In this document: positions 7,746 to 43,280 of the stretch, piece after piece
Layout of the letters: every line of letters starts with the position of its first letter
Numbering within the stretch: position 1 is the stretch's first letter
DNA from: Panopea generosa
Taxonomy: Eukaryota > Mollusca > Bivalvia > Adapedonta > Hiatellidae
Length of the DNA stretch: 64,000 nt
Direction: 5' to 3'
Assembly: GCA_029582155.1 (NCBI GenBank)
Contig: CM055909.1
Span: 45,204,218 to 45,268,217 of the forward strand
Position numbers and translations under genes: made by a program
Notes under the pieces: generated by a model
Told to the model about the DNA's origin: nothing
What the model saw: only the letters and a program-made list of their open reading frames with translations
Databases searched by the model: none

Positions 7746-7916
7746 ATGGAATGCAGGGACAGTCTTGGAGTATTTAATGAATCAGTGTTTAGCTTATGGA
7801 CTTGTTCATTGTGTTACATGTATCTTTTTCCAAACAAGGACTTTAAGTTTAATCGTAATCATACCGAACCGGGATTAGTGAAGAATGACGAAGAACTTCA
7901 CCAACCTTACATAAAG
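7746..7916 (+). CDS. Class B GPCR, putative first coding exon (57 codons)
   Basis: Open frame from ATG to a consensus donor (AAG then GTAATA), ending in phase 0, which fits the phase-0 start of the exon at 15434. An in-frame TAA at 7722-7724 makes this ATG the likely start. The peptide has a hydrophobic stretch at residues 14-28 (VFSLWTCSLCYMYLF) that could serve as an atypical signal or anchor segment, then a hydrophilic part with N-glycosylation sequons at N11 (NES) and N38 (NHT). Class B receptors normally start with a signal peptide followed by a short variable stretch, so position and character fit. The peptide itself is not recognisable by similarity, and phase match alone has a one-in-three chance of being accidental. 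Membership in the receptor gene is therefore an inference. Confidence 0.5.
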
Positions 7917-10366
7917 GTAATACTTTTATCATACTAGAATAGATAAGATAGTTGCCTTAGCATTTTAATTGTTAGTATACTACCTGACTTTTTATTATTT
8001 TTGCAATACCTTAATTATATTTCTAACATTTAATAGTATTCACAAACTAAAGCTTGTGTTTTATACTTAATATGGTATTAAGATATACGCTTGAACAGTA
8101 GTCAAAGAATAACGTTCATTATATTAGATTCAAAATATGCTTGAAATGCATGTTTCAGTAAAGGTTTGCTTTTATAAAAACGAGTACAGTGGTATATCTT
8201 CGAAATTTAGGTGCTTTGAAAATACGTCAAGTCATACCCAGTTTATTGTTGCCATAACAGCATACCTTTAGATATTTTGTAAACTAAAATTATCTTTTTT
8301 GTGATATTTCAAAATGTATCAAAATTGATTTTTAAATTTGACTATGTTATTTAAATAAATAAATAATGGAGACTGTTCAGATAACACTTGTTTGAAGTTT
8401 CCCAAAAAAGTGTATTAACAGAAATTTTAGTTCCATCAATTACTTATATATATAGATAATTCTAAGAATTGTAGTTTACTTTTTAACGGTATGATGTGAC
8501 CGTAACAAGTGTTTGTATTATAGCATGAACGTGTCAACAAAATGATATTCATGTTAATCAATGTATAGACTGTTTTAAATAGACACGGATTCAAGATTTA
8601 AGACTAAAAATTCTTTATTCAATAATTTAAACATATAATTATTTTCATTACATACAAATTCAAATAATAAATGCAACACATGACACGCAAATAATAGATC
8701 AATATCATGTTCGATTCTATTAAATTAGAAATACAGTATTACGTTATTTAAATACATACATTTTCCCTAGTTCTTGAGGTTGGACAAATATGAAATAAAC
8801 ATTTTAACACTTTGTCAAATATATGGTTGAGTAAATCCACACAAAAAAAAGATAGATATATACCTTATGTATTCTGATTTACAAGAAATTACGAACACTT
8901 AAAGCTTGATGAATTAAAATTTAACAAAACTGAATATTTCTAACTTTGCATTAACTCAATAAACTTTAACATACTTTGTCGTTTATAATACTATGATATA
9001 ATAAAGCTTTTTAAAGATATTCTGATATCTAGGAAATATTAACACAAAATGGTATTCATCTTCTATGTCGTTAAAGTTACATAGTGTGCAATAACTAGGT
9101 ATACTGCTTACTAGAATAGTTTTAATCATAACTTCAAGTGAAAACAACTATACATGTTTCTAGTTTGTTCATTTAAATAAGTTATGTCTATAACAATATT
9201 ATGACAATATTGTAATGATTACAAATCTGATTAATTTTAAGTTAGTATATAGTTGTTAACATTTATTTAGTATGTTTTAAATAGTATCAATACAACTATC
9301 CTCATCGTGTTCAATGTTATATTTTCATCATTTAACAAACTAAACTAAATTAAAACAAAACCGATTTCTTTTGCAAATTAAAACTACTACACTCACGTGT
9401 GTTAAAGTCAAAATATGTTTGTATTGATAAAAGCTTATATACTCTCGATTGAACTAAGCCGAAACACTCAAAATTAAAATCCGAGCTTTAATCAATATCA
9501 TAAATGTATTTCTTAAGTCCCATAATTTATGGAAAAACTTAAACAATATCGATAAAAGTTCTAACTATGTGGTGTGGTCTGTCATATTCAACATAAATTT
9601 ACAGCATCTAGATCAAAATCGTCTGGAAGTCGGCTAACGCCATATAAAGCCATACAATAGTGCAACTGTTGTACAGACGTCATGTTTATTTCATTCTTTC
9701 TGAATTAAATGTATTGATTACCAACACATGTATCAGATATGTCTCAAACCAGCGCAGTACTTAATTGAAATACTTATATCAATTATATGACCTGATAAAT
9801 AAAGTAGTTTCCCAACAAAGGAAGTAGATCGTTGATAGATGTATGTAACTTGTTTGCAATTTTAAACATATAATAGTCAATCATTAAAGTGTTTGAAGTG
9901 TCATATCACCATGTAGCTGCGTATATTTGTGTAAATTCATAATACATTTCTCTGTTTACTCTGTAAGTAAATACTAATTCAATGTTGCCATCTCTCTTAT
10001 ATGACTGCAACAACCTTATTTTGAAGTTTCAATACATTTTTTGTCGGTGTTGTTGTTGTATTGTGATTGTCCTACGTATATTATGTACTTCCTTTTCTCT
10101 TTGCGTTTATTTCTTGAACACGAAGTTATAAAAAGTAGCAGGGAAAACAGAATAATACGCGAAATTAAAAATGACAATTTTCGAAACCATGAATCACATA
10201 AAAAATCATGGGTGTCTAATTAGGAATATGAAAATATAGAATTACAAGGGCGCTGTTATCTAATATATCATTTCAATTTTTAGATAAAAGCTTTGTAAAA
10301 AAACAAATTTTGTGAAAGTCGTATATCTATGGACGAATATCAACTCTCATACTATTGAAATAAAAT
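7917..10366. other. Intron 1, 5' part
   Basis: Very AT-rich DNA with many short open frames and no recognised repeat copy. AAAT/AAAATAAATAAATAA runs occur near 8350. I see nothing that looks like an exon. Confidence 0.5.
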
Positions 10367-10512
10367 AATTCCGCATAATAAATATTGAAGACTTTAGCAT
10401 AATAAATATTAAATACTTCAGCATACTAAATATTTAAATATTTAAGATTCCAGCATAATAGATATTGAAGACTTCAGCATAATTAATATTGAAGACATCA
10501 GCATAATAATCA
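10367..10512 (+). repeat. 24-bp minisatellite, array 1
   Basis: About six degenerate copies of a 24-bp unit, best seen as CAGCATAATAGATATTGAAG plus ACTT (10450-10473). The same unit forms a cleaner array 1.1 kb downstream at 11554-11705. Copies here differ from one another, which suggests an older array. Confidence 0.8.
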
Positions 10513-11553
10513 TTGTCACAATACAGATTTTTATTGTTTTAACCCCTTTATTTTACCCTTTGCTTCATACGCACCTGTATTATTGTTTTTTATATTCCTT
10601 TGTTAGCTTGACTATTCACCCGTGAAATAAGCTAAGCACATGCCAATTAGACATGTACAGTAAGAGTGTGTAAGTGGTCAGATGAGAACAGTCATTGATA
10701 TGGTCAGATAGAGAGAAATTTGCAGATAAGTTGTATTCAAGTGAATCAAAAAGGAAAGATACTGTGAGTAGTTTATTTGTTTAAGTTATATTCTCTGAAA
10801 TGCTGAAGTGTTGTTATTTTGAAAATGTGTACCAAATGTTCATTCTAGTAAGAGTGTGTTTGTATAATTGTAGGTGGTTTATGGGTGATTGGAGTTTCTC
10901 AGTTGTTGAGATGTTAGCCTTGCAGCCTTATGGGTGATTGAAGTTTCGTCGGTAGAGGTGGTTCAACAATATTGATAAATATATATAGAGAGAATAAGTC
11001 CTAGCATACACCTGATGAGATGTCTACCTATGTGTAAAATATAATACGTCCTAAGTGGTACACGTGATTATTAAATGTGACATCGTATTGAATTTAATAC
11101 TATACGTCATATGTGGTATATGTATAATTATTAGTCGTCATGATGGAGACCTGTGTGGTAACAACAATATGATTTACAAAAAAAAAATATAGAGCAGCAT
11201 CCCTCGCGGACATCATTTAACGTCGAATCATAGCGAGCAAAGGGCTATATTTGGAAGAACGTAATAGCGGTGTTTTATCATTGTACAGTTTTCAAACGTT
11301 GAGTGAATTTTTAAACATTAGAGAACATATTGAGAATGTCTACATCAGAACCATTTGGATACAAGTGTCTTTAGAATTAGTGTTGTTATGTGTATACTTT
11401 GAACAATACATTATTATATTATATGCAATAAAAAACATTGATTGTAGCCATTTTGTTAAAGCGTCATTTCTTCATACAAAGGTCAATAACAAATAATAAA
11501 GAATCTGACTCACACTTAAGTGTGACAAACATGAATAAATTCAGCAAAAGTCA
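10513..11553. other. Intronic spacer between the two 24-bp arrays
   Basis: Contains two imperfect direct copies of about 57 bp around 11035-11145 (both with a TACGTC..A.GTGGTA core) and no exon I can support. The 81-codon open frame at 11251-11496 has no domain or splice context. Confidence 0.4.
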
Positions 11554-11705
11554 TATTAAATACTTCAGTCTAATAAATATTGAATTTTTCAGCATAATAG
11601 ATATTGAAGACTTCAGCATAATAGATATTGAAGACTTCAGCATAATAGATATTGAAGACTTCAGCATAATAGATATTGAAGACTTCAGCATAACAAATAT
11701 TGACA
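11554..11705 (+). repeat. 24-bp minisatellite, array 2
   Basis: About six copies of the unit seen at 10367-10512, four of them nearly identical (CAGCATAATAGATATTGAAG plus ACTT). Because 24 is a multiple of three, the array reads as an open frame with an eight-residue repeat (IDIEDFSI) inside an ATG-initiated 100-codon frame at 11438-11740. No splice sites, signal peptide or homology support translation, so I treat the frame as a by-product of the repeat. Confidence 0.85.
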
Positions 11706-12386
11706 GCTCATTAGTTTTTGACTCATGGTGTACTTTCTAAGTTGAGGCCTGTCAAATGTTCTCCGACTTCCCCTTTAATTGATACATTTTTTATTACTAC
11801 GATTGGCACTGTCTTATCTGAGGTTAAGTCATATATTATATAACATTGTGACCATGATTTAATAAAAGTTAGCTGACACCGGCTGTATATGAATAGGTCG
11901 GATTAGTTTATTATACATGTTAGCCGAGATTTAAAGTATGTTGTGTGTAAGCTTGTCCCTATTTATTATATTTATGAAATCTGTGTATTGCTTTTAACTT
12001 TATGTGGTTTGATAGTAACTCTTTACGCGATTGTTGAATTCCAGACCTGAGTCAAGAAGTCATGTTTTGTTTCTCACTCATTTTTTGCATTTGCATTTCG
12101 TTATTATTATCATTTTTCTTTGGCCTTCACAATTAATTGATTAATATATCTAAATAAGGTTTTTTATTTTATTTTTTTAAGATTGGTAACATTATCTTGG
12201 TTTACTATTTATCTATTCCGTAGCTTACGTCTTAGAACGTATCTACTGAACTCACAGTGTTAACTTTTACCTCTTAGAATGAGTTAACCTACGACCATTA
12301 TCAGTGTATCTCATTTGCACGGGGAACGGACCGTAAGTTAAATTGGCAGAACCTGTGACAAGGTCTTCTTGATTATATATGTGTGT
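11706..12386. other. Intronic spacer before the 35-bp array
   Basis: No repeats or exon-like sequence recognised. Confidence 0.4.
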
Positions 12387-15255
12387 AACTGTATTATATA
12401 GTTATACTACTACTGAAATGCAACTGTATTATATAGTTATACTGCCATTGTAATGTAATTGTATTACATAGTTATACTGTCATTGTAATGCAACTGTATT
12501 ATATAGTTATACTACTATTGTAATGTAACTGTATTATATAGTTATACAACAATTGTAATGCAACTGTATTATAAAGTTATACTGCTATTGTAATGCAACT
12601 GTATTATATAGTTATACTGCTATTGTAATGCAACTGTATTATTAAGTCATACTGCTATTGTAATGTAACTGTTTTATATAGTTATACAACAATTGTAATG
12701 CAACTGTATAATAAAGTTATACTGCTGTTGTAATGCAACTGTATTATATAGTTATACTGATATTGTAATGCAACTGTATTATATAGTCATACTGCTATTG
12801 TAATGCAACTGTATTATATAGTTATATTGCTATTGTAATGCAACTTTATTATATAGTTATACTGCATTTGCAATGCAACTGTATTATATAGTTATACAGC
12901 TATTGAAATGCAATTGTATTATATAGTTATACTACTATTGTAATGCAACTGTATTATATAGTTATACTACTATTGTAATGCAACTGTTTTATATATTTTA
13001 ATGCATTTGTAATATAACTGTACTATATTGTTATAATACGATTGTAATGCACATGTATTATATAGTTATACTGTTATTGTAATACAACGATATTGTATAG
13101 TCATACTGCTATTGTAATGCAGCTGTATTGTATATTTATACTACTTTTGTAATGTAACTGTATTATAGTGTTTTACTACTAGTGTAATGTAACTGTATTA
13201 TATAGTTATACTACTATTGTAATGCAACTGTTATATTACGGTTGTAATGCAACTGTATTATATAGTAATACTATGATTGTAATGCAACTGTATTATATTG
13301 TTATACTTCTATTGTAATGCAACTGTATTGTATAGTTAAAGTACTATTGTAAAGTAACTGTATACTATAGTGATACTGCTATTGTAACGCAACTGTATTA
13401 TATAGTTAAACTACTATTATTACGCAACTGTATAATATAGTCATACTACTATGGTAAAGTAACTGTATTATATAGCTATACTACGATTGTTAAGTATCCG
13501 TATTTTATAGGTATACTTCTATTGTAACTCAACTGTATTATATAGTTTTATTACTATTGTAACACAACTGTATTATATAGTGATACTTCTATTATAAAGC
13601 AACTGTATTATATAGTTATACTACTATTGTAAAGTAACTGTATTATATAATTATACTACTATTGTAAAGTAACTGTATGATATAATTATACTACGATTGT
13701 TAAGTAACTGTATTTTATAGTTATACTTCTATTGTAATGCAACTGTATTATATAGTTAAACTACTATTGTTACGCCACTATATTATTTAGTTAAACTACT
13801 ATTGTTAAGCAACTGTATTATTTAGTTATACTACTATTGTAACGCAACTGCATTATATAGTTTTACTGCTATTGTAATGCGACTGTATTATATAGTTATA
13901 CTACTATTGTAACGCAACTGTATTATATAGTTAAACTACTATTGTTACGCCACTGTATTATTTAGTTATACTACTATTGTTACGCAACTGTATTATATAG
14001 TTATTCTTACTATTGTAACGCAACTGTTTTATATAGTTATATTGCTATTGTAACGCGACTGTATTATCCAGTTATACTACTATTATAACGCAACTGTATT
14101 ATATAGTTAAACTACTATTGTAACGCAACTTTATTATATAGTTATACTACTATTGTAACGCAACTGCATTATATAGTTATACTACTATTGTAACGCGACT
14201 GTATTATATAGTTAAACTACTATTGTTACGCCACTGTATTATTTAGTTATACTACTATTGTAACGCAACTGTATTATATAGTTATACTACTATTGTTACG
14301 CAACTGTATTATTTAGTTATACTACTATTGTAACGCAACTGTATTATATAGTTATTCTTACTATTGTAACGCGACTGTATTATATAGTTAAACTACTATT
14401 ATAACGCCACTGTATTATTTAGTTATACTACTATTGTAACGCAACTGTATTATATAGTTATACTACTATTGTTACGCAACTGTATTATTTAGTTATACTA
14501 CTATTGTAACGCAACTGTATTATATAGTTATTCTTACTATTGTAACGCAACTGTATTATATAGTTATATTGCTTTTGTAACGCGACTGTATTAAATAGTT
14601 ATAATACTATTGTAACACAACTGTATTATTTAGTTAAACTACTATTGTTACGTAATTGTATTATATAGTTATACTACTATTGTAACGCGACTGCATTATA
14701 TAGTTATACTACTATTGTAACGCAACTGTATTATATAGTTATACTGCTATTGTAACGCGACTGTATTATATAGTTATACTTCTTTTGTAACGCAACTGTA
14801 TTATATAGTTAAACTACTATTGTTACGCCACTGTATTATTTAGTTATACTACTATTGTTACGAAACTGTATTATATAGTTATACTACTATTGTAACGCAA
14901 CTGCATTATATAGTTATACTACTATTGTAACGCGACTGTATTATATAGTTATACTGCTATTGTAATGCGACTGTATTATATAGTTATACTACTATTGTAA
15001 CGCGACTGTATTATATAGTTTTATAACTACTGTAATGCAACTGTATTATATAGTTTTACTCCTATCATAATGCAACTGTATTATATGGTTACACTTTTAT
15101 TGTAATGCAACTGTATTATATACTTATACTACTATTTTAACGTAACTATATCATATAGTTATACTACTGTTGTAATTCAACTATATTATATAGTTATACT
15201 ACTATTGTAATACAATTATATTACATAGATATACTACTATTGTAATGTATCTGTA
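12387..15255 (+). repeat. 35-bp minisatellite, ~82 tandem units
   Basis: The unit is 35 bp; its parts are AACTGTATTATATAGTTATA and CTACTATTGTAACGC. Most units match the consensus at all but a few positions. In the first kilobase and the last 250 bp the unit end is mostly AATGC or AATGT. Between about 13380 and 15000 it is mostly AACGC, often with a second CpG (CGCGACTG). A five-unit block of 176 bp is repeated almost exactly at 14231-14406 and 14407-14582; it carries a one-base-longer unit containing GTTATTCTTACTATTG. The array ends 178 bp before the receptor exon at 15434 and carries no coding capacity. Confidence 0.95.
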
Positions 15256-15433
15256 GTGTTATACGGAATAAATATGTTTAGATTTTATTAACAGTCACCC
15301 TATAGTACACTGATCCTAAAATAAAGTATTTACTTAATTTGTTGCTGAAGTGTGTAGTATGATTAAGTTTGTATTTTATTTTAAAGAATTCATGTGCTTT
15401 TAAAATTCATATCTTTCTTGTTTCTATTTCCAG

Positions 15434-15572
15434 GTGCCGTCGACTATGGAGTTTGTTTGCGAAAGTCTCGGTGTTCATGACTGTGCACGATGGACGGATT
15501 GCTGTAAATCAGCAGAGAAATGTTGTTCACGACAAAAATCTGCCAAAGCTGCAATGACTGGGACTGAATCAG
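15434..15572 (+). CDS. Class B GPCR exon 2, paired-cysteine N-terminal module
   Basis: A strong acceptor (TTTCTATTTCCAG) and donor (CAG then GTATAG) bound 139 bp with one open frame matching the phase of both neighbours (0 in, 1 out). The 46 codons encode cysteines at predicted residues 66, 74, 80, 81, 87 and 88 in the pattern C-x7-C-x5-CC-x5-CC, including CARWTDCCKSAEKCC. A C-x2-W-x2-CC-x2-A-x2-CC pattern just before the HormR domain is what I recall from class B receptors of molluscs and annelids (PDF- or calcitonin-like receptors); this needs a search. The exon is GC-richer than its surroundings. A 62-codon frame at 15369-15557 is a shifted reading of the same DNA. Confidence 0.72.
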
Positions 15573-17994
15573 GTATAGTATATATATACATGTAGCAGTC
15601 TTATGTTTTGTTCAACAGCCGTAAGAAATCGTCCTATAGTTTGACTCAGTGGTACCATTATTTCCGGAAATAGAATACCAGTGCTAGAAGGATTAGAGGG
15701 GTGTTGCATATTTCAACATCCTCACGGACAGACTTATTAACTCCAGTCTTGTTCTTTGATTTTTTGGAAATGTCCTGTGCTTCTAATTTATACATGTCGT
15801 ATACATCTTTAGATCCGGTACGACATCCATTAAGACACTAGATTCTATAGGACTCACACCACTATTATCTCCCTTGAGTACTTCGGACCTACAGATGAAG
15901 GTGGTAGAAATAAAACTTTTGTTCTCTTTTTCTTCTTTTTTCAGGGCTTTGTACTGCAATGTTTTGTGTTTTTGCTAGCATGAGTTAAATGATCAGTATT
16001 TTAGAAATCGCCACTGAAAATTTGATGCTGATACCAGCTTTCTGGACAATTCTGTGTCATTTCAGAATTGTTGGTTCGAACCGCATCTAGGGCGAATAGT
16101 TGTCATATTATTACTCTGGAAATTGATAGGTCTCACAAAAGCATTGAATTTAAAAAAACCGACCTGGTCAAGGTATACTTTTTTCCCTTTATAATTGCAT
16201 ATCTTGAATCAGTGAAGAATTTGAGCCCAGACACATGCTGCAGAATTAAATTTTTCACTCTGTTTTGGACATAAATGTTACAATGGAGCCCTATGGTAAA
16301 TGTAATAGTGGTGTGAGACGTATACGTGCCTTTTTATGAGCCGGACACCATGTTGTTTCGATCAGCAGCATCAATGTGTTACATTCATTTATGTTTCAGT
16401 CTGAATTTGACTGCCTAGATAAATCAGGGAAAATATGCTTACACCCTTAGCTGCATAGCTTACAACAGAACGGGGCCAGATTGAATGTGGTGAATGGGAC
16501 TTCGATCACAAATCAAACCTTACTCAAATACAGATTTCAAAATTGTTTTACTTTACATAAAACTATAGGTTCTTTCATAAATATCTTTCTTTTAAGATAC
16601 ACAGTTTGAAAGGCAAATTTTGTGTCTACATTTGCATTAAGATGCATTTATAAAATTTCCTGACAGGTAAACCGTTCATACGAAATGTGAATGGAAATAT
16701 ATTTTGATCCTTTTGCGTATCCCTCCTAATACTTTCAGTAACTTACTGCCCATAGCAGTTACTTCAGGTCTTAATTAAACTTCTTCGTTTCCCAATTGTA
16801 TTCCGATGTCAAATGCAAAGACTCACAACGGTGCCCTATTGACCCTAGCCAATATAGTTAAACTCTATTATTACACTTTCTCCAACAAAGGTTCTGTAAA
16901 TATAATACCCTATACACTTATTCTTCTACAGATTTCTGAAAATATCTATATATATTAAGATTGTTCGGTGCCGGTATTGGCAACTTTAGATCAATGCGGT
17001 CAAACTCTGAACCAAACACGGGGGTCATAAATAATCTGGTAGGAGACCATAATATAAGAGACGATGGGCATGGAAGACAGACACGGATGACGAACAACGA
17101 AGGGATTGCTATCATCATACCTCTTACGAGTTTATGAGCTAGGCGAACTACCGCCAACAGGAATAGTTAAAACAAAAATCATGAAACAAATGTAAAATAC
17201 TTCTATGTATATTTTACAAAAAACACTGATAAGAATGTATGTGTATCCCTCAAGAATAAAGTTTGCTATTGTTTTGGTTTACAGGTCGTTTAATTCCAAA
17301 ACATCGATTTTGAAACTACGTCGGTAACATAATAGAAAACAAATTACAATTTTAATAAAACAACAAAAAACTGTGACGCTCAATTACTGACACGAATATC
17401 TGTAAAGCCGATAACATTTTCAAAATTGACTGTTCGAATAGTTCTGTATTAATTCAATAGAAGGCACTACTGCATATAGTTGTAAACTCAGTGTCAATGA
17501 AATCGAGTTTGCTATATTCGTTTCGTAAATTACATCCTTTGCTTCCATAGATTATATTAATTATATATAGATAGTGTAAACATGTAATTTAGAACTCAAT
17601 TGTTTGTCATCAATTTTAAAATAAGTTTTTACACCTTGTTCAAATCACCATTTGTTGTTTTCTTTGGTAGAGCCAGTATAAAGCATACCCGGATAAGGCA
17701 ACCTACCCAATGTCATATCATGTCTTATTTAGATTTTTTGCCTGTAGACTCCACGCCTCATACACATAAAAATAAATGAAGTAGTTATAATAAACTTTAT
17801 CTAAAATGAACATTATGTATGGATGTTATAAACCTTTGGAAACCTTAGCCAATCAAAATACTGCTTACAGAATGTAAACTAGTCACAAACAAAATGACAT
17901 ATAAAATGACGTCATAAACTACGTTTCTATTACTAATTCTATAAACAATAAATACAATTGACCGCTATTGACCACTGAAAATTATGCCATTTAT
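15573..17994. other. Intron 2, 5' part
   Basis: No repeat copy or supported exon. A GC-richer patch at 16965-17140 is open on both strands (about 60 hydrophilic codons on +, 79 hydrophobic codons on -), but neither frame has good splice sites or recognisable similarity. Confidence 0.4.
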
Positions 17995-18175
17995 CGTTGA
18001 ACGCAAGCCTAAGGGTCTTAAGTTCGATCCTCCGCCATGGCTATGTGTAATGTCTTTAAGCTAGACACTTTATCACACATGCTTTGAACTGATTCTGCCC
18101 AGGAATACTTCGAAGATAATTTGCATCATTTGTAAGAACTTGTTTAAGAATCGAGGTAAAATAACTATCAGAATA
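17995..18175 (+). mobile_element. SINE family D copy (head truncated)
   Basis: Starts with the B-box half (AAGTTCGATCCTCCGCCATGG, with TTCGATCCTCCGCCA at 18023) and continues through the same body as the 28711-28923 copy, ending with AAGAATCGAGGTAAAATA. The tRNA-like 5' half is lost. Its 3' part is also the start of the duplicated segment at 18099-18655. Confidence 0.65.
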
Positions 18176-18655
18176 TTTAACGATGAGTTAGTGAGGAAAT
18201 GGTCCGCCTATATAGGAGCGTGCACGATTGGCAATCATCTTCAACTACACTTAAATAATCATGCTCATTTTCAACAAAATTGCATTTTGGGTTCTACCTA
18301 TTGATTTCCCATATCTTAGCATAAACAACCTTCATGGAAACAAGAGATAGTATACATGGATACATCATCAAACAGACATTGATTTTGCATTGTTTTGTTG
18401 TTCTCACACATTTTATTTGATTATTAAAGAAAAACCCGTGCATATTTTATAAGATGAAAGCAAATGGACCGTCTGTATAACAAGATCCATATTGTTGTTC
18501 TAGTCATGCATGGACTATAAACAATTGCATATCTCTAACAATAAGATGCTGAGATATCAATATCAACCATAAACGGTCCGTAGGACAACGCAACCTATCA
18601 GTTACACTGATAGATAAATCTTTAGAACAAATCATCTGTAGAAGGTCGATTAACA
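18099..18655 (+). repeat. Segmental duplication, copy 1
   Basis: This segment matches 19437-19950 in the same order and orientation. Landmarks are CCCAGGAATAC (18099), CTATTGATTT (about 18298), CACATTTTATTTGAT, GTGCATATTTTAT, GACCGTCTGTATAA, CAATTGCAT, ATCAATATCAACCATAAA and the end GATAGATAAAT. Similarity is partial with many indels, so it is old. A SINE A copy (19100-19418) lies between the two copies. Confidence 0.75.
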
Positions 18656-19086: not shown

Positions 19087-19431
19087 TTTATACAAGATAC
19101 CGTGGCGTGGTCTAGTGGTAGAGCATCCGCCTTGCATGCGGAAGGTTGTGGGTTCAACCCCCGGCCGGGTCATACCAAAGACTTTAAAAATGGTACTAGA
19201 AGCTTCCTCGCTTGACGCTCAGCATTTAGAGGAGAGTTCTAGGTTTGTTCGGCCCGGTGTCAGTATAATGTGGCTGGGTGGGGTATCATACCATGTGTCT
19301 GCGGCATGATAATCCAGTGTGACAGCGATTAGAATACTGACTCAAGTAGACACCGTCGCGATATGACTGAAAAATTGTTGAAAGCGACGCTAAACAGCAT
19401 ACAACAACAGCAACAACATTTATACAAGATA
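19087..19431 (+). mobile_element. SINE family A, complete, with 13-bp target duplication
   Basis: The element (19100-19418) has a tRNA-like head with A-box TGGTCTAGTGGTAGAGC and B-box GGTTCAACCCC, and an anticodon-loop-like CTTGCAT suggesting Ala-type ancestry. A 3' body follows, ending GCGACGCTAAACAGCATACA with a CAA-rich tail. It is flanked by perfect 13-bp direct repeats TTTATACAAGATA at 19087-19099 and 19419-19431. A second copy at 60388-60700 is inverted and highly similar. Mobilisation would require a LINE partner, which is not identified here. Confidence 0.92.
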
Positions 19432-19436
19432 TATAT

Positions 19437-19950: not shown

Positions 19951-20220
19951 ACAGTTGCCCTTGTTATAGCAAATGAAGCACAAAGGAAGCACTTGTAACC
20001 GATGTGATATGTCAATGATAAGAAGAAACACGGGGTCCAACTCTTTGCGATTTTTATTTTAAATTTAATGTACATTCCTGCAAGTTACCCGTTTGGTATT
20101 GATTCATTTGATTATTTGAGAAGCCATTATTTTAAGAGAGGAAGAGCGATGTTTGGTAAACCAGTTTTAAAATTAGCTGGGTTTGCTATTGACCTTCCAA
20201 GGCTGCTCTTACTTCAATTA

Positions 20221-21125: not shown

Positions 21126-21679
21126 ACCGAAGTATACTTCTACGACATTTTATGTATTTAGCTGAAGTTGATGGCGTCGTTCGTGTTTAGTATCATTTCC
21201 GCTGTCTGTACTTATTTTGTCCACCTTCTAACGTAGGGTATACTTCTTTTATTCTGCAACTTAATGCATATTCGATTGTGACCCTTTTTAAAATCAGCCT
21301 AAATGTTTTCTCATTACTCGAAAAAAAAGACCAGAAAGTAAGGTCTTGAGACATAGTAATGGAGAATTCCTCTTAAATTCTTAACACCCTGAGGAACAGG
21401 AGTCTTTTATTTGTTTCAGTCTTGTCGTAATCTTTAATGTTTTTATCATACTTCTGCAAACTGAGAAAGTATATCCGCCTTTAGCATCGTGTACTCATGT
21501 TTTAAGACTGAGCAAATTTGTATATTACACCAAGAATTTGTATATGTTATAAGCAATTATTTACAGCAAAATATGTTGACCTCTAAATATCATATATTGC
21601 CCTCCTCTTAGACTCATGCATTATCTACCGAGGCCAATAAACGCGTTTTATCACTATGTCAATAACGCATCAATATAGA
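21126..21679. other. Intronic non-coding stretch
   Basis: No repeat or exon recognised. Confidence 0.4.
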
Positions 21680-21930
21680 TTTTTTTTAATAGGGTTTAAC
21701 GCCATTTTCAACACATTTCAGGTTATATAAATTATGGCATATCCAGTTTTACTGGTACAGGAAGACCCCAGATTGAGTGAGACTGAGTAGAACCACCTTC
21801 CTTCCGCAAGTAACTGGCAATCCTTCTTAATATTTTTGGAGCGAGCGGGACCCGAACCTACGACCTTAGCGGTAAGAGATAAGTGATTTTGAGACGGCGC
21901 CTTAGACCAATTGGCCACGGAGTATAACAT
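21680..21930 (-). mobile_element. SINE family B, near-complete
   Basis: Read on the minus strand: A-box CGTGGCCAATTGGTCTAAGG, a long variable region, B-box GGTTCGGGTCCCGCTCGCTCC, then a body with TTCTACTCAGTCTCACTCAA and AAAACTGGATATGCCA, ending AATGGCGTTAAACCCTATTA followed by an A-rich tail. The same body and tail occur at 40412-40660. The 70-codon minus frame here is internal to the element. Confidence 0.85.
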
Positions 21931-23615
21931 CGGGTTACAAAGGAAATGTAACCAGAAAAAAAGTTTTTGTTTTGATAGTTCGATGTATTCTTTGTGTTTG
22001 TGATGTTATGGTCATTCATTTGCTAGAAAATAGAATATAACTTAAACTGGTACTTGAGTGTGTGAGGGACGTTGCGTATTATATTTTCCTAAAAAGCAGC
22101 TTCATTAGATCCAAGTCTCCTATTTTTTTATGATTTATTCTTTGCGAACGTTTTTCCTGTTAGATATTATAAATCCATTACGTATTAATCGATAAAAATG
22201 AAATATAAATGTCTTTCTGATGACAATGTGAAGCACACATTTATGATCCAACAGCAGAACATACGCTTCTAAAAGTCATACATATAATCATATTAAACAC
22301 ACAGAGACATTTTCTTGTTGAATTAGATTTTCACTAATAGTATTTGTCTGTAAAAACTCACTGAGAGCGATATGATGGGTGTTTTTTATGATACCGTTAT
22401 TATGATAAGGTTAAACGCTGAACACGTTGCTGTAATACATCAGCATGCTATTGGAAACATTCAGATTCCACAGGCGCCAATCTGCACGAAAGTTATATAG
22501 TAGATAGCGAAAAAGGGTCTGCAAGAAACTGAAATATATCAATTAGAATGTTTTAAGCAATTAAGCGAACGGTGTTTAATAAGTGAAGTAATCAAAACGA
22601 CATGGTGTAACTTGTATTTTGATAACGAGAGAATAAAGTCAGTAAACAACACATAATGTCGTGCAATTTGAGCATTTTTTTGTATCGCAGTCTAAAAATA
22701 CGAAATTAAATGCATGAAAATAAGCAAAGTTATTGTTGTTTATGCAGTTGAACGGAACAGAAAAAACCGGAATGGACTGCATAAGCCTTTACGTTGCACT
22801 GATTAATAAGGCTTTAACGTTTTGAATAATCTACACTATAGTGTGTTTTACTGGAGTTTTATGGTAATGTGATTTTATAGTTTCGTTTGAATCTTGGTCT
22901 CTCTCACATTTTTAACGATAATTAAGTTTAGCTTTAGTATTACTGCAACATACTGCATTTGAGATGGTTAAGCATCATCTTCCTGATTGGCTGTATTGGC
23001 GAGTTCCTCCGTACCTGCGATCATATTTTGTTTTACATACATGTATTTGTTTTCTGTGATATTAATGTGGCCATTTTGAGAATAGCCTTATGTTTTGCTT
23101 TATGCATAATGTTAACCTCAGCAAGTTAATGTATTACACCATACACACATGGAAACTGTTTTTAAATTGATATTGTGGATGAGCTAAGTTTGTTAACATT
23201 TGTACACTGGTTAAAGAGCAAGGTTAGATGTACATATTAAACAAGTTTAAATTAACCAGTAGTCATTTTGTTACTGGTCGTTCAAATGTGGCGACCCCAT
23301 ACTCTGATGTTATTTGTTCTGTCGGTTTTTGTTTCATTATATTCTATGCATAGTAACATTGTCCTATTGCGTGTGTCGTACCTTTCCATTAATAAGAGTC
23401 CTTTTCTATTGCTCATGTCGTGGACAATCTTGATGAACTGTATAATATTCTGATAAAATACAGTTTGAGTTTCCAGCATAATAGTATGACCTTTTAAAAT
23501 GCTAGTTTTATTTTCACGTGTTATTTGAATAACTACTTAACATGTCAGGGTCAATGTTTTTAGTCCAGTCAATTGTATATCAATGAAATTATTTTTTATC
23601 GATTTTAACAAGATA
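21931..23615. other. Intronic non-coding stretch
   Basis: An open run of about 48 codons at 22358-22501 (+) ends at a TAG without splice support. Nothing else stands out. Confidence 0.35.
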
Positions 23616-23868
23616 CAGGGACCCGTTATTCTAACCTTCGTACGTCTTTAGATTTTCGTACGAAGACAAATGGTGTCACCAGGAATGTTTCATTTGTGCA
23701 GTTATTTTGCAAATTTTAAAAAGAATACTGTTTTAATGTGCATGACTAGAAAAAGTTCGTAATATTATGTGAATGAAACATCTACTGAATTTTCTGACTT
23801 TTTTGGTAACTTCAAATTTTACATGAAGAAGTTCGTAAACTTACGAACATTAGTGAAACGGACCTCTG
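23616..23868. mobile_element. MITE family D, 253 bp with imperfect terminal inverted repeats
   Basis: The left end CAGGGACCCGTTATTCTAAC and the reverse complement of the right end CAGAGGTCCGTTTCACTAAT align over about 30 bp and continue into CTTCGTACGT versus GTTCGTAAGT. Each arm also contains its own small dyad (CTTCGTACG...CGTACGAAG at 23635-23668, and GTTCGTAAACTTACGAAC at 23831-23848). No open frame. I could not find a convincing target-site duplication, and the superfamily is unresolved. Confidence 0.7.
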
Positions 23869-25122
23869 ACATTTCGGACAGACATGCTAGGTTACTTTCC
23901 ATTGCGTAGCTTAGTTTGTGGCTTAGTGTCATTTCCAAGTTCATGTTTACTCTAAAACGTCTAGGTCATGAACATTTAAATTCGAAAAAAATCCAAATTA
24001 TAGAATCAAATGAATCTGTACAGAGACATTGACTATAAAATATATCAACCGCCTATCACAGAAACAGAACGGATGAATTATTCAGACATTTGCATTTTAT
24101 CTTGAAGCGACAGGAAAAAATGGATCCCAACGGTGCTCATTATGTAGAAAATAACAAACGCCACATGTTCTAGGCCTGGTCTTGTTTTAATGTTGCTAAT
24201 TCTGATCATTTTGAGAATATAACTCCGAAATAGCGTGGATGTTTGTCAATGTACTGAAACTAGGTATTAAGGACAACGACACAGAACATTGAACAAAAAC
24301 ACATTACAGACAAATAAATTGAATTGTTATTGGACTTTGTTGTCGTTATTTTCTTAACTTGGAATAAAGAAAATCTAATGTTCTGTTCCTTATTTTCAAT
24401 AAAACACCGTTTTTCTAGATTAAGCACCGTAAACATGAGTCAAATGTACATTATACATTTATAATTTTGCAAACGATTTTTCTAAGCGGTTACATGACTT
24501 GAAAGAACCGAGATTAAAACTTCATATCAATTAAATTGAACGGACTTTTTACTAGATAGAATGTTTTTATATTACATATTAAGAGGTTAATGCTTTTAAT
24601 TAATATATACAATTTATGTTATTAAAAATGATGGATGTAAATAGTGAGTAGCTACTGATATTTGTATTCATATATGTGAATGTGTGTGATGTGGACTATT
24701 TTTTTCTTTTTTGCTATATCATGATAGAAATGTCTGTGTATGTGTTTTTCGAGTTAGATATGACAAAAGTGAAAGTATCGAATTGAGATATAATTTGAAT
24801 ATTATTTTTTAAAAATAACTTTTGTATTTTATATGGACAGCAACTATTTGTTTGAAAAGGGTGTATACGTTTATTATGATATGGTATTTAAACAATTTAT
24901 AAATATGATGCAAAACATGTGTTAACAGTGGCGATGTACATTTGTATAGTTTTTGGTTATAGCTAAATCATAATTTAGCTTCTCTTCTTCTACGGGTTTG
25001 ACATACAAACTCGTACCACTTGTCCCTCTTTCCTCTACTTTCAACTACTTTCCTTACTTTCACTGTCAATTTTTTTATATTTATAAAGCAATCTGTACAT
25101 TTTGTTTTTACTTCAACGTTAA
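23869..25122. other. Intronic non-coding stretch
   Basis: Mostly featureless. The pyrimidine-rich part near 24975-25070 could be the 5'UTR of the LINE that follows, but this is a guess. Confidence 0.35.
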
Positions 25123-26636
25123 ATGAGTATTAAAGTATGTACTTTTAATGTTAAAGGTTTATATGATTCATCAAAAAGAAATAATTATTTTACTTGCTTA
25201 AATTAAATAAATACTCTTAGACTATTTGCTTACTACATGAGCTACATTGTCAGGAACAAACTTGGAAGGGAATGGTGTGGGGATAGTAGTAATAGTTACT
25301 GTAGTGGAATGGGCAATTTGTCAATCCTAATTTTATGTATTTAGTCCAAGAATATAGTAATTTAATCGAAGACAGAATGCAGTCATTAAAAATAATAATA
25401 AATGAAAAAGAATAAACATTTTTAAATATCTATGCACCAAATAATTCAACATATAATTTAAACTTTCTTACAAAAATTGAAGATTTCATTTATTTAAATG
25501 ATAGTGAAACCATGATAGTAGGAAGGAACTTTAAAACTGTAATAAATGTTGAGTTAGATATAAAACAAAAACATGGACAATATTAACAATAATAAAAACA
25601 ACATGGGAAAAATAAACAATAATACAAAATAATGATATAAATGACATATGGAGGATATTAAACACAAGCACTAAACATTATACCTGGCATTCAAACAACA
25701 GGTTTTCGTTCGGACCGTTCTCTCGTATCTTTTAATCTTATTATTGGCAAACAACCACGTGTTATATTAGATAAAGCATATCAGGATAAAGTCAAACAAT
25801 CTATAAAAGAAGTAGCAGAAATAAATAATGAATCTAATCCAAATACATTATGGTAACTAATTAAAGGTACTATTAGGAATGAGTCTATTAAATACACGTT
25901 GAATAAAAAAAAGAATACATCAAAAAATGAAATAAAATTCAAAATGAAATCAATAATTTCGAAAAAGAATTAACTGAACATCCAAATGATAAAACAATTA
26001 CAGATAATATTAGTGAAAATAAAATCGGAGTTAAATCAAATTTATTTATTGAAACACAAACGAATGGAATTATATTAGAGTAAAAGCAGAATAGGTGGAA
26101 GGAGCCGAAAGAAATACAAAATACTTAAGTAATTTGAAGAAAAAAAAGATCTAAGAGTAGAACTATCAATAGACTTATTTAAATTGATAGAAAAATAACA
26201 CAATCTGGAGACATTAAAGGAAACAAACGGATAGTATGCAAAGGTATACAGTAAAATAGAAACAATGATAAATGATAATGAAGATTTTTTCCCAAATATT
26301 AGAGAAACTATACGAGAAACTATACCAAATGAAGAGCAAAAACAATCTTGTGAAGGTATTTAAATGAAGAAGAATGTGCACTTTAAAACAAATGAATTAT
26401 GGAAAATCTTCAGGATCTGATGGATTTACAACAGAATTCTATAAGATATTTTGTAACACGATCAAGACATTCTATATTAACTCTATAAACTATTATTTTG
26501 TAAATGGAAAATTAACAGAAATGCAAAAACAAGGTGTTATGTCTCTTCTTCCCCAAAAAGATAAAGATTTAACGTCTTTAAATAACTGAAGACCAATAAG
26601 TTTATTGAATATTGATTATAAAATTACAACTGTTTT
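25123..26636 (+). pseudogene. Dead L1/Tx1-like LINE ORF2 (endonuclease to early RT)
   Basis: Fragments in several frames keep the order of an L1-type ORF2. An endonuclease start (MSIKVCTFNVKGLYDSSKR at 25123) is followed by the NIYAPNNSTYN region near 25422 and an eroded GGDFN equivalent (VGRNFKTVINVE near 25519). Next come an FTWH-like segment (about 25680), a linker, and a reverse transcriptase start with KSSGSDGFTTEFYKIF (about 26407) and QGVMSLLP followed by RPISLLNIDYKI (about 26590). The Trp before RPISLLN is a stop codon, and frameshifts and stops are frequent. Similarity stops at about 26636, before the catalytic FADD region. It lies in intron 2 of the receptor and cannot be active. 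Confidence 0.88.
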
Positions 26637-26909
26637 TTTTAAGGATGGTAAAGGAATCCCTGACCTTTAAAGCTAGTTTGTATCTATATAATAACATAAA
26701 CATAGTACAACAAACTGCAAATGTACCAATGCGAGTGCACGTTCATCGTATAAAATACCTGATAATCGTATAAAATATACTAAACAAAATAAGTAACTTC
26801 CACTGTTTTCAGATATATGTAAATATGAAAAAAAGGGTTAACTTATTTTTATATGTATTGCAAGAGTATTTTAATGTGAAATTGTGTAGAAAATTTTATC
26901 GCCCTACGT
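26637..26909. other. Junction between LINE relic and Tc1 relic
   Basis: About 270 bp of AT-rich sequence, including a duplicated ATCGTATAAAATA at 26747-26759 and 26764-26776. It may contain the 3' terminus of the Tc1 element, but I could not define an inverted repeat. Confidence 0.3.
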
Positions 26910-27302
26910 TTACGGAAAACTGATAAAATAGTTGATTAAATGAGGTAGGGGTCGTACACCAATATCACACATTAATACCGGGGTAGGGCCACCTTGGGCA
27001 TCGAGGACTGCCTGGCATCGATGGCGCATAGAACCGACTAGTGTGTTGATATCGGCCTGTGGAATGTTGTTCCACTCCTGAATTAAGGCTTGTGTTATTT
27101 CATTGACGTTCGACGGTGGAATAGGGCGACGTCTAACACACTTGTCCAACTTATCCCACATGTGTTCGATGGGATTAAGATCTGGGCTTTTGGCGGGCCA
27201 GTCATCAATAAATGCAATGTTATTCGTCCAGAGATATTTCACAGTATCTCTTACTGTATGGCTTGTGACATTATCCTGTTGAAACAGTGGATATTGGCAT
27301 TA
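26910..27302 (-). pseudogene. Tc1/mariner transposase, C-terminal fragment
   Basis: The minus-strand frame preserves the second catalytic Asp (FQQDN, about 27296-27282) and the catalytic Glu in WPAKSPDLNPIEHMWD, then a C-terminus with EWNNIPQADINTLVGSMRHR. That is roughly the last 130 residues of a protein normally near 340. By hand count there are 35 residues between this Asp and Glu (DD35E), one more than in classical Tc1. Upstream on the minus strand the frame is interrupted and the DNA-binding domain and first Asp are missing. It is a truncated, inactive copy. Confidence 0.9.
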
Positions 27303-28710
27303 TTTTGAAACAGTGGGATGACATACCTCACATTATTAACCAACCCAACAATCATTTCTAAAGCAGAACACTTTATAACAAACGCTTTGATAAATCGGAT
27401 AACTTGATATTATTTAAATTTTGTTTAATATTTGTTAAAAACTTCTTAAATATATTTCATAATATTTAAATAGTATTGCATATTAATCAATGTAATGCTT
27501 TTACTCTTAAATTTACGATTGACTGTATTCTCGCCTTGAAACACCATTATTCTTTTTTAATAACTTATAAATGAATTTAGAAAATGTGTTATTTAAAAAA
27601 AGTTACAGATAAGCCTGTTTAGGTTTGGTACACAACTTTGTATTACAGCTATTATATTTGTTTGTCTATGTTTGTATTATTTTGAAATCATGTCACGTAA
27701 ATAAATAAATAATGGCAACAAAACCGTAAAGTGACTCTACTGGAGATTATCTATATGACAGTTTGATAAATACATACAATGCACATTCAGACATAGCTTC
27801 TGTTCAATATAAACGCTGGAAAAGCGAACGATATAAGCTCACTGAGTGTATTTTCATAAATTTATTATAATTGTGAAAGTAAAATTTAATTCCTTATTAT
27901 GTAAGAACATCTTTGGTAGTGCAAAACAAATTATTGAAAGGTTTCGAATACAAATGTATAGGTACAAGATCTATAATGAACTCGGAATTAACATTGTGAT
28001 CATGCAATACTTTCATAAAACACTAACATTAGCAAACGTAACGGTGCGTTCACATGACGAAAACATCTTACATCTTGCATATATGCAAACGTTACTTTGC
28101 ACTTGGTCTCCACGTGTTGCAAATTGACATATAGAGGAAATAATTAGGAAAATTGGCACCTCAGACTGTGTATCTGTGTTGTGGATATAAATTGGGGTAT
28201 TACATGTGTAGACATCAGCAAATATCTAAGAATAAAAATATACTCATATAATCGATAATGAATTTACATCCAACAGAAAGCTGCATTCCCCATCACCCGG
28301 CTTATCGTGTTTGTTGTGAAATGAGACCCAATATAACGTATCTTGTGGCACAATTATAAAGCTTTAAGGTTAAATTGATGTGCATTGTTGAAAAAATATA
28401 TTTACATAGTTATGTTTAAAAGCCAATATAGACAATTCTCATCCATAGTCCTTTATTCTTGAACTATATTAAATATAAATGCATGCCAATAGGAGAAACA
28501 GGACAAACACACTTAAGCAGCTAGACATGTCACCGCCTTGGATCGGTCATCAAAATGTCTAATTATACCTGACATATTTCTAGAGTCATAGACATACTTT
28601 ACAGCCAATAAGACATTGATATTAACATATATATTACGATATTTCAGAGAGGCGACCGTAAAATGTCGACCCGTATTTGTACTCAGTGTTTTAAATAGTT
28701 TTGAATCATT
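27303..28710. other. Intronic non-coding stretch, possible LINE 3' end
   Basis: At about 27640-27715 a TTTGTTTGTCTATGTTTGTA segment followed by AAATAAATAAATAA resembles the 3' end and simple tail of a LINE. It might belong with the 25.1-26.6 kb relic, split by later insertions. The 93-codon frame at 27846-28127 is unrecognised. Confidence 0.3.
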
Positions 28711-28923
28711 AGTTTAAACTTATTTATTTTACTTCGATTGTGAAACAAGGACTTTACAACGTAGACAAATCACGCTCAAAACCTTCCTGGATAGAACCAG
28801 TCCTAAGCATACGCGGAAAAATGTCTTGCTCAAAGATATCACATATGATAGCTGTGGCGGAGTATCGAACCCACGACCTTCCGATCATGACTTCGGTGCA
28901 CTACCGCCGGACCACGCACTCCA
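28711..28923 (-). mobile_element. SINE family D, most complete copy
   Basis: On the minus strand a tRNA-like head (TGCGTGGTCCGGCGGTAGTG, B-box GGTTCGATACTCC) leads into a body with GAGCAAGACATTTTTCCGC and GGACTGGTTCTATCCAGGAA, then TTTCACAATCGAAGTAAAAT. This is the reference for the fragments at 4122, 17995, 19437 and 48373. The 77-codon + frame at 28740-28973 is antisense to it and not a gene. Confidence 0.85.
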
Positions 28924-30483
28924 CATTCATTGGACTCAAGGAGCTAACTCGGTGGTGCTTGAGGTGGTATTAGTGGGGTGATGGGTTCTGTATGATTCAA
29001 AAGCACCCATGAACAATACAATATCTTTTTAGTTGCACTCGTTCTTCACTTGCACGGGATCCTTCAATAAGTCAGTGTTTAAATGTGCTTTTTAAGCGAT
29101 GGTCAGGTTGCGATCCCGGCATAACGAATTCAGTTTAATTTATTTGAATAAAATGTAACAAAACCTTCTACAGATAATTATTCAAGTGTCATCCGAACTT
29201 TCGTGTTAACAATTTGAAAACATTGTTTGTGTTGCATTGCTACTACTTGTATTGGTATTTTAATTGAATTAGAGCCTTAATTATTAAGATTGGTTTTCAA
29301 AAAATTGACATCAAATAATCAGCAAAACAAAGCGTTTGAATAAATTAATCCTGATTCGTGCAATTTATTTCCCTGTTATACAAATAACAGAGGCTAAGCA
29401 ATATTGGATGCAGATGTTTTTGTTCTAACTTGAATGTTGAATTATTCGAAACTTCTTTCTTATTGTGTATGTGTGTGTGTTTGATTTTACGATTTTGAGG
29501 CTCGCCACCTGAATGTTCCGAGACATCCCTCGAGATAGAGTTTAGAACAGATTTCCGACTTGTTGTAAAAGCACACGATGTATTCTGCAGAGTACGTTAG
29601 TGATACATAGATTAAAAGGCAACATATGGTTATTATTCAGTAAATTTATTCACTCGGGAGAACCAAAAGGAGATGATCTTCACATCCTTTGTAATTTAAA
29701 CGGTATTGCAGACCGGACCACTTCTAACGGACGCCTAGTAGTGTAAAACTGATATGTAGTTCTACCGATGAGAGCGAAGGTGTTACTGTAATACATATTA
29801 GGAAGGGGAAGTGCATGCATACATCTGCTCTGAATCACACCTCTTCAAGTTATGGAAGAATAAAAATAATCTTCAAATGCACTGACGTGATAGTCTAGGA
29901 TATGTAAGGATTTCGATATGAATCTTTTAATGTTGCTGTCTGGCAGGTGTTACAGAACAGATAAAGTACCGGTTTGTTGAAGAAATTGTCAAGTACAATC
30001 AGAAATTGATCGAATTGCCATCTTGTATTCAAATAAATGAATATGTTTGTTATAACAATATATACAGCAGTTTATTTAAGATGTTGCGTGATTTAAGTAT
30101 TTCGGTGTATAAATAGTAATTTCATTTTCTAAACGTGGCTTTTTTCCTTTAGAGTTTAGAATTTAATACACGGGACTCAATGATTGCGAATTTCTCCGGT
30201 CGTCGCAAAGACACATTGCCTTTGCAAATGTGTACAATGACCAATGATCCTATGAAGATTTAAATTTACTTATACCCTATTTAAAACAAAACTCACCCCT
30301 TCATCACTTAGCATTAATTATTTAATGAATATATTTGTAATATCACCAGGAATGTCACTGTTACACGCGTCAGCTGCGTGCTATATGTAGACTTTGACTT
30401 GGTATGATGATAGTGCTAGTAAGAATGATAGACGGTCTACCAAAACATGACAAGCGGCTGTCCAAACAGCGTGCTCGTATGTC
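28924..30483. other. Intronic non-coding stretch
   Basis: No repeat copy or exon recognised. Confidence 0.4.
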
Positions 30484-31536
30484 GCTGCTATGTAACGGTC
30501 CCCAGCAGGAAAAACAAGGACTGTTTTTTTTTTACAGTTGCTATGTATCAGTCCCAAGCGGGAATAACAAGGACTGTTTTTCTACAGGTGCTATGTATCA
30601 GTCCCCAGCGGGAGGAACAAGGACTGTTTTAATACAGCTGCTATGTAACAGTCCAAAACAGGAATATCAAGGACTGTTTTTCTACAGTTGCCATGTAACA
30701 GTCCCCAGCAGGAATAACAAGGACTGTTTTTCTGCAGTTGCTATGTAACAGTCCCCAGCGGGAATAACAAGGACTGTTTTTTCTACAGTTGCTATGTAAC
30801 AGTCCCAGCAGGAATAACAAGGACTGTTTTTCTACAGTTGCTATGTATCAGTTCCCAGCGGGAATAACAAGGACTATCTTTCTGCAGTTGCTATGTATCA
30901 GTCCCCAGCACGAAGAACAAGGACTGTTTTTCTATAGTTGCTTTGTATCAGTCCCCAGCGGGAAGAACAAGGACTGTTTTTCTATAGTTGCTATGCATCA
31001 GTCTTCAGCGGGAAGAACAAGGACTGTTTTTCTATAGTTGCTATGTATCGGTCTTCAGCGGGAAGAACAAGGACTGTTTTTCTATAGTTTGTATGTAACA
31101 GTCCCCAGCGGGAAGAATAAGGACTGTTTTTCTACATATGGTATGCAACAGTCCCAAGCGGGAAGAACAAGGACTGTTTTACTATAGTTGCTATGTATCA
31201 GTCCCCAGCGGGAGGAACAATGACTGTTTTTCTACCGTTGCTATGTAACTGTCCCCAGCGGGAAGAACAAGACTGTTTTCCACAGATGGTATGTAACAGT
31301 CCCCAGCGGGAAGAATAATGACTGTTTTTTTCTATAGTTGCTATGAATCAGTCCCCAGCGAGAAGAACAAGGACTGTTTTTCTACAGTTGCTATGTAACA
31401 GTCCCCAGCGAGAAGAACAAGGACTGTTTTTCTACAGTTGCTATGTAACAGTCCCCAGCGGGAAGAACAAGGACTGTTTTCTACAGCTGTTTTGTAACAG
31501 TCCCCAGTGGGAAGAACAAGGACTGTTTTTCTATAG
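30484..31536 (+). repeat. 50-bp minisatellite with internal hairpin, ~21 units
   Basis: The period is 50 bp (for example CTATGTATCA at 30541 and 30591). Each unit contains AACAGTCC and, after a loop of about 16-18 bases (CCAGCGGGAAGAACAA), GGACTGTT, an 8-bp perfect inverted repeat. Units are highly similar across the array, with an ATAAC versus AAGAAC variant shift after the first nine or so units. Because 50 is not a multiple of three, long open frames run through it in cycling frames on both strands; these are artefacts. The array ends 85 bp before receptor exon 3. Confidence 0.95.
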
Positions 31537-31621
31537 TATACATGTCTCGAGAATACCCAAGACATGACCCGATACGGAACGAAACGTTACCATATGTCTA
31601 ATATCAATAATTTCATTACAG

Positions 31622-31735
31622 GCATAAAACACTGCCCAAGGACTTGGGATGGATGGAGTTGCTTTGACGATACGTTACCAGGACAACGGGTAGATACAAG
31701 TTGCCCGGGCTTTATTAAATATGGAAGTTTGAAGG
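31622..31735 (+). CDS. Class B GPCR exon 3, first half of hormone-receptor domain
   Basis: Flanked by an acceptor (ATTTCATTACAG, with a possible branch site CTAAT at 31599-31603) and a donor (GGTAAG). It is 114 bp, phase 1 in and out, and joins in frame to exon 2. It encodes CPRTWDGWSCFDDTLPG followed by a CPGFI motif: the C-x3-(W/F)DG-x2-CW-x3-PG-xn-CP(x)(F/Y) signature of the HormR domain that binds peptide hormones in secretin-family GPCRs. Predicted residues 104-141. The Trp normally following the second Cys is Phe here (F118). The remaining HormR cysteines and the seven helices should be in further exons, which I did not find before 64000. Peptide ligand cannot be deduced; PDF-, calcitonin/DH31- and PTH-like receptors are all possible. 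Confidence 0.85.

Positions 31736-43277: not shown

Positions 43278-43280
<3 letters not shown>

Follow-up and report, generated by a model that had tools for sequence, protein, structure and literature searches.

A predicted calcitonin-type class B1 receptor gene of Panopea generosa with a nine-cysteine domain ahead of its HRM

Calcitonin-type receptors of lophotrochozoans have been described as CALCR types I and II and Cluster A (PMC7200681; PMC8557429; PMC12638048), and in the parts of these papers drawn on here they are class B1 receptors related to CALCR/DH31R with lineage-specific duplicates, features shared with the gene analysed below. According to the same parts, their ectodomain contains six conserved cysteines, and the passages concerned include no added nine-cysteine domain. 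The window, i.e. the 64,000-nucleotide stretch of P. generosa DNA under analysis, carries three small coding exons spread over 24 kb of AT-rich, intron-dominated sequence, which the first-pass annotation correctly read as part of a receptor gene, and this gene reaches almost 100 kb past the window.

The three exons lie on the plus strand. Exon 1 (7746..7916, 171 nt) has a provisional 5' boundary and a donor in phase 0, and is identified by its translation and by homology to paralogues. Exon 2 (15434..15572, 139 nt), recognised from its translation and paralogous copies, starts in phase 0 and ends one base into its last codon, while exon 3 (31622..31735, 114 nt) is in phase 1 on both sides and encodes the first half of an HRM. 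A GT directly follows each of the three exons, an AG preceded by a pyrimidine-containing tract stands before exons 2 and 3, and the splice sites of exon 3 were compared with those of other class B genes on the chromosome (C16). Two introns of 7.5 and 16 kb separate the exons, whose in-frame joining yields 141 translated residues plus one base, and the coordinates, splice sites and phases first proposed for them proved exact on re-reading. The accompanying claim that no single open frame exceeds 66 codons was inexact, as the stop-to-stop frames of exons 1, 2 and 3 measure 70, 63 and 75 codons.

The start of a hormone-receptor domain (HormR), which had been placed on exon 3, was borne out by the profile search, in which this exon by itself matches the Pfam HRM (PF02793) with 36.3 bits (E 7.3e-9; cut-off 26.2 bits); the same locus reaches 34.2 bits in a genome-wide HRM scan. 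Exon 2 alone gave no match in Pfam and PDB searches. It contains six cysteines in 46 residues, a content unexceptional in the window, where other stop-free stretches of 46 residues contain 7 to 10, and it is therefore not singled out by its cysteines alone; instead it is taken as real because of four paralogous copies, and exon 1 is supported likewise. Positions 31736..64000 (plus strand) form the first third of intron 3, which is 99,479 bp long in total. A Pfam scan of the masked plus-strand frames of 31736-61587 returned no receptor exon and one chance match (E 3.4), a scan made insensitive by its pseudo-proteins of 5000 residues and run without a positive control; the later 12-exon model likewise has no exon in that interval. 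A first motif scan for the second part of the HRM within the window yielded nothing useful.

The annotation had also held that most of the receptor must lie downstream, and the seven-helix exons sought beyond position 64000 were indeed located there. Nine further exons (4-12) were identified from 120 kb downstream, at window-equivalent positions 131215-161324 outside the window, giving a model of 12 exons, 153.6 kb and 501 residues on the plus strand (C16:45211963-45365541). HRM part 2 (window-equivalent 131215, plus strand) scores 40.8 bits and is the sole strong match of its profile, the next reaching 8.5, and TM1 to TM7 follow on the same strand at 138767-161324. Among 12,140 open reading frames from both strands of 264 kb, the seven top seven-helix matches all come from the plus strand, where they follow one another in the order of the helices. 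The TM1 exon (C16 45342984-45343075, plus strand) was the sole candidate within the limits of length, phase, open frame and splice score, and then proved hydrophobic; a site first noted for TM1, 45340572, was dropped in its favour on reading of its sequence. All 12 exons are phase-compatible and the joined frame is open to a single stop; the donor of exon 11 is GC, and the acceptors of exons 3 and 10 are weak under a simple splice matrix.

In the complete model, the HRM reaches 60.1 bits (E 2.8e-16; profile positions 3-65 of 66) and the secretin-family domain 7tm_2 (PF00002) 164.3 bits (E 4e-48; 10-234 of 250), and the presence of both upholds the original assignment to the class B GPCRs. The HRM contains Cys 108, 117, 131, 148 and 170 and ends at residue 172, the TM1 exon begins at residue 175, and the cysteine pair linking TM3 to ECL2 is present as Cys 258 (ESCKV) and Cys 327 (DICW). 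No GAIN/GPS domain, typical of adhesion GPCRs (class B2), was detected, as the 501-residue model holds HRM and 7tm_2 alone at E <=0.01. Exons 1-3 are thus predicted to be the 5' part of a multi-exon class B1 (secretin-family) GPCR gene, with a probability of roughly 0.93 judged from sequence.

Exons 1 and 2 together encode a conserved nine-cysteine domain (N-domain) of about 90 residues ahead of the HRM, where exon 1 provides the first half with C3, C20 and C23, and exon 2 the second half with a pattern resembling CxxLxxxxCxRWTxCCxxAxxCCxxQ. Four sister genes with this domain are located on C16 at about 42.29, 46.69, 47.21 and 59.12 Mb. They share the nine N-domain cysteines and the HRM with the window gene, but encode the N-domain and HRM part 1 uninterrupted, with the segments in the same order, in a single open frame, whereas two introns interrupt this region in the window gene. 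Exon 1 matches the sisters in the same open frame as their HRM (E 3.2e-5, 1.9e-4, 0.057 and 0.50), and exon 2 has all four of its paralogous copies on C16, three with a scored HRM match shortly downstream; individually, three of the four exon 2 matches and two of the four exon 1 matches are weak (E 0.01 to 0.5). In the alignment of the five members the nine cysteines are invariant, and the window gene is 32-37% identical to its sisters over the N-domain and HRM part 1. The exons are short, their splice consensus is loose and the cysteine content of exon 2 is unremarkable, as would be expected if three unrelated open frames happened to be joinable by accident; nevertheless, all three have homologues, a complete receptor lies downstream, and the three segments recur in order within single open frames of four paralogues, so that chance has a negligible probability. 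Exon 1 had further been read as a hydrophobic N-terminus; this hydrophobic stretch is no separate leader but belongs to the cysteine domain, of which exon 1 forms the first half.

When the N-domain alignment was run as a profile against the PDB, a lone match to an antibody light chain appeared (E 0.28), and a Pfam scan of the five members hit three families, each through a single member (best E 0.1); all of these matches were taken as chance. The titles and abstract openings returned by a broadly aimed literature search included no paper on a nine-cysteine N-domain, and the domain is possibly undescribed. Together with the five HRM cysteines, its nine cysteines give an even total of 14, from which we infer that one N-domain cysteine may serve as the usual sixth HRM cysteine, while the other eight may form four additional disulfides.

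Class B1 GPCRs usually possess a signal peptide. A phase-0 acceptor was read before the first conserved cysteine in three paralogues, and the equivalent position here (7717..7724, plus strand) may be an ancestral acceptor AG, after which the exon would begin at 7719 in phase 0 and at once meet an in-frame TAA (7722-7724). The placement of the start codon is thus only provisional, ATG 7746 being the sole methionine codon that follows this TAA (7722) and still precedes the first conserved cysteine. A search for a signal-peptide exon in the 87.7 kb upstream, under arbitrary limits, gave no candidate on the forward strand and two on the reverse-strand control. Both observations would suit a decaying or 5'-truncated gene, in which the stop just after the ancestral acceptor has cost the signal peptide and with it delivery to the surface. 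Such decay is unlikely, however, as all 12 exons are open with compatible phases, the nine N-domain, five HRM and TM3/ECL2 cysteines are all retained, and a normal start would result from an alternative, if weak, acceptor, from a different start or from an exon outside the scanned stretch.

The predicted receptor probably belongs to the calcitonin-receptor type, judging from its ranking against proteins of solved structure, a reference set without protostome receptors, in which the CGRP type 1 receptor (CALCRL) scores 216.5 bits over an alignment of 333 query residues, the calcitonin receptor (CALCR) 201 and the secretin receptor (SCTR) 160. Membership of another class B1 subfamily (PDF-, CRH- or PTH/glucagon/secretin-like), with exons 1-2 still part of the gene, would be compatible with the TM3 exon, which on its own scores highest with the glucagon receptor (45% identity), and with the several class B1 subfamilies that lophotrochozoans possess according to the part of PMC7200681 drawn on. 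We regard this as improbable, as over the HRM and 7TM span SCTR trails CALCRL by 56 bits and CALCR by 41, with other receptors further behind among the best 60 of 108 matches, and on visual inspection of the alignment with CALCRL, HRM part 2 and TM6 appear to resemble those of calcitonin receptors. The TM3 exon of the window gene is nearest to those in the neighbourhoods of three N-domain paralogues (52, 46 and 43% identity), and the four share a one-residue gap found in none of 12 other TM3 exons of C16 compared. An attempt to place the other C16 genes in subfamilies by this exon alone was given up, since some 50 residues compared with five human references give too little information.

By homology, the product would act at the cell surface and recognise a neuropeptide or peptide hormone, with surface expression, a peptide ligand and G-protein coupling all expected by analogy with the family. 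The ectodomain (N-domain plus HRM) would capture the C-terminal part of the peptide, whose N-terminal part would enter the helix bundle, and signalling would proceed chiefly via Gs and cAMP; the most probable ligand would be a calcitonin-type peptide, with chances that seem about even.

Across the 1.47-Gb assembly, 15 of 18 HRM matches are on the chromosome of the window. The class B1 family is said to have arisen through local duplication, an idea tied to Hwang 2013, and the concentration of its genes on one chromosome bears on this origin. A restriction of class B1 genes to a single chromosome in a genome of this kind was the subject of none of the titles and abstract openings from the broadly aimed literature search. 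Tentatively, and at somewhat less than even odds, the product of exons 1 and 2 may be an extracellular domain not named before, which would lengthen the usual class B1 N-terminal helix, add four disulfides and mark a separate calcitonin-type subfamily with its own ligand recognition, within a class B1 repertoire located almost wholly on one chromosome. Should it be new to the literature, the domain would provide a concrete way into the diversification of calcitonin-type receptors in this animal group.

The window gene is a real and mostly ordinary class B1 receptor gene, of which the extra N-terminal cysteine-rich piece is the one unusual feature. With CALCR and CALCRL, to which its homology is distant, it shares an HRM with the motif CxRTWDGWxC, a similar HRM part 2 and WMxCEG in TM3; unlike them, it carries nine cysteines in a stretch of about 90 residues before the HRM.

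The exons at window positions 7746-7916, 15434-15572 and 31622-31735 join in frame to 141 residues plus one spare base, and their coordinates and phases are exactly those proposed in the first-pass annotation. As it had anticipated, exon 3 alone matches the Pfam hormone receptor domain (HRM, PF02793) at 36.3 bits (curated cut-off 26.2; E 7.3e-9), and the joined peptide does so at 33 bits (E 7.8e-8). Searched against solved structures, this peptide retrieves the secretin, calcitonin and CGRP type 1 receptors, the similarity falling mostly in its HRM part, and exon 2 alone has no match in Pfam or PDB.

The window (C16:45204218-45268217) is AT-rich. One minisatellite (12387-15245; 82 copies of a 35-bp unit) ends 189 bases before exon 2 and another (30486-31537; 21 copies of a 50-bp unit) ends 85 bases before exon 3; in genome searches that skip very common words, 44 of the 46 matches to the first and 12 of the 13 to the second are the arrays themselves, and the rest lie on contig C6. 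Intron 2 contains a transposase remnant (26910-27299, minus strand; DDE_3, 29.9 bits against a cut-off of 28.6), which we take to be Tc1/mariner-like. ARAGORN calls two tRNA-Ala genes (19100-19171, plus strand; 60629-60700, minus strand), which have no Rfam match at gathering scores and are probably SINE-like or false.

The remaining exons, which the first-pass annotation had expected downstream, were sought in a 264-kb region reaching from 80 kb upstream of the window to 120 kb beyond its end, and HRM part 2 and the transmembrane exons were found beyond the window. The TM3 exon (C16:45348388-45348552, on the contig carrying the window) was scored at 47.7 bits in a genome-wide search with the secretin-family seven-helix domain (7tm_2, PF00002). 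A helix profile built from five human class B receptors was run on 12,140 stop-to-stop open reading frames from both strands of the region, and its seven best matches (TM2, TM3, TM4, two TM5 pieces, TM6 and TM7) are collinear and all on the plus strand. A second profile, from seven receptor sequences, gave HRM part 2 as its single strong match (40.8 bits; next 8.5). For TM1, the interval from exon 4 to the TM2 exon held a single candidate that satisfied the limits on length, phase, open frame and splice score, and its translation is hydrophobic. With splice sites set by sequence reading and then scored with a simple matrix, the model has 12 exons (171, 139, 114, 98, 92, 151, 151, 61, 67, 83, 133 and 246 nt) whose frames connect throughout, giving 501 residues and a single stop; it spans 153,579 bp, of which intron 3 takes 99,479 bp. 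Exon 11 is followed by the intron that separates the TM6 exon from the TM7 exon (C16:45363419/45365296), and its donor is GC (CAG|GCAAGT), a known variant used at a minority of splice sites.

The 501-residue model matches 7tm_2 at 164.3 bits (E 4e-48) and HRM at 60.1 bits (E 2.8e-16), and nothing further in Pfam reaches an E-value of 0.01; this test is independent of the sequences behind the two search profiles and bears out the assignment to class B GPCRs. Among the best 60 of 108 solved-structure matches, HRM plus helices rank the CGRP type 1 receptor first (216.5 bits), followed by the calcitonin (201) and secretin (160) receptors, an unnamed chain (147), and the PTH1R, GLP-1 and glucagon receptors (at most 145). 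The subfamily call depends on this whole span, because the TM3 exon by itself is closest to the glucagon receptor. Overall, it is an ordinary, largely intact-looking receptor gene, one feature of which may be undescribed.

This feature lies ahead of HRM. A genome search with exon 2 recovered the exon and four further places (E 4.9e-7, 0.0103, 0.0103 and 0.0295), every one of the five on C16; three of the four have a scored HRM match directly downstream. Exon 1 gave six matches: its own position, those four places again (E 3.2e-5, 1.9e-4, 0.057 and 0.50) and one on C3 (E 0.24). Several of these values are weak taken singly, but the two queries converge on four common open frames, where their matches are correctly ordered and an HRM start comes next. 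When the five stretches are aligned, each shows nine cysteines, none of which varies, and no convincing relative appears in Pfam or PDB. By this alignment exons 1 and 2 encode a single domain (the N-domain), and exon 1, first described as a hydrophobic N-terminus, is therefore not a hydrophobic leader. A phase-0 acceptor lies ahead of the first conserved cysteine in the paralogues at 42.29, 46.69 and 59.12 Mb, whose signal peptide would accordingly be expected in an upstream exon; in the fourth paralogue the reading is ambiguous. In the window gene the matching AG (exon start 7719) runs into an in-frame TAA (7722-7724), and no signal-peptide exon was detected in 87.7 kb scanned upstream. This leaves three possibilities: a start at ATG 7746, use of a weak acceptor, or a damaged 5' end.

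The window gene has a phase-1 intron ahead of the first HRM cysteine. A phase-1 boundary lies within a few residues of this place in all five other C16 class B genes read (L002, L003, L004, L007 and L008) and is missing from all four N-domain paralogues, which suggests an old intron lost in these four. The window gene's TM3 exon shows 52% identity to the TM3 exon at 47.13 Mb, 46% to that at 46.78 Mb and 43% to that at 42.31 Mb; these three are close to the N-domains at 47.21, 46.69 and 42.29 Mb, respectively, and together with the window gene's TM3 exon they share a one-residue gap found in none of the 12 other C16 TM3 exons compared. By position and strand, each such pair would be one gene. 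For the N-domain gene at 59.12 Mb, the genome-wide 7tm_2 match list contains no TM3 exon.

The genome searched has 1,474,161,289 bases in 39 contigs; a lophotrochozoan, for instance a bivalve, would be in keeping with this size, the AT-richness and the set of class B genes. Of its 18 HRM matches, 15 fall on C16 (64.2 Mb; range 12.5-59.1 Mb); of the other three, C3 has two and C10 one. Visual reading of the 47.21 Mb paralogue showed a sixteenth HRM on C16, and as the search missed it the list is a lower bound. Only 25 of 95 7tm_2 matches are on C16 and most lie elsewhere, so the concentration is specific to HRM-bearing genes rather than to all secretin-type helices; the simplest reading is that these genes duplicated locally within one ancestral chromosome. 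Compared over about 50 residues with five human references, the 16 C16 TM3 exons are nearest to CALCR (9), CRHR1 (2), PTH1R, SCTR and GCGR (1 each, the last being the window gene's) or tied (2), which hints that more than one class B1 subfamily is probably represented, individual genes not being assignable from this length. Both C3 matches are intronless or nearly so: of L001 (C3:17905787-17908987, minus strand) and L006 (C3:56701898-56705020, minus strand), one is an intact 412-residue intronless receptor frame with HRM and 7tm_2 and the other its frame-broken near-copy, apparently a retrocopied gene and its decayed duplicate.

By homology, the product would be a peptide receptor signalling via Gs and cAMP, in which the ectodomain captures the peptide and the peptide N-terminus activates the helix bundle. 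The ectodomain of the model contains 14 cysteines, which would fit three standard and four extra disulfides. In a study of mussel calcitonin-receptor-like receptors, these are reported to be activated in cells by vertebrate calcitonin, and one of them by high concentrations of a mussel calcitonin peptide (PMC7200681).
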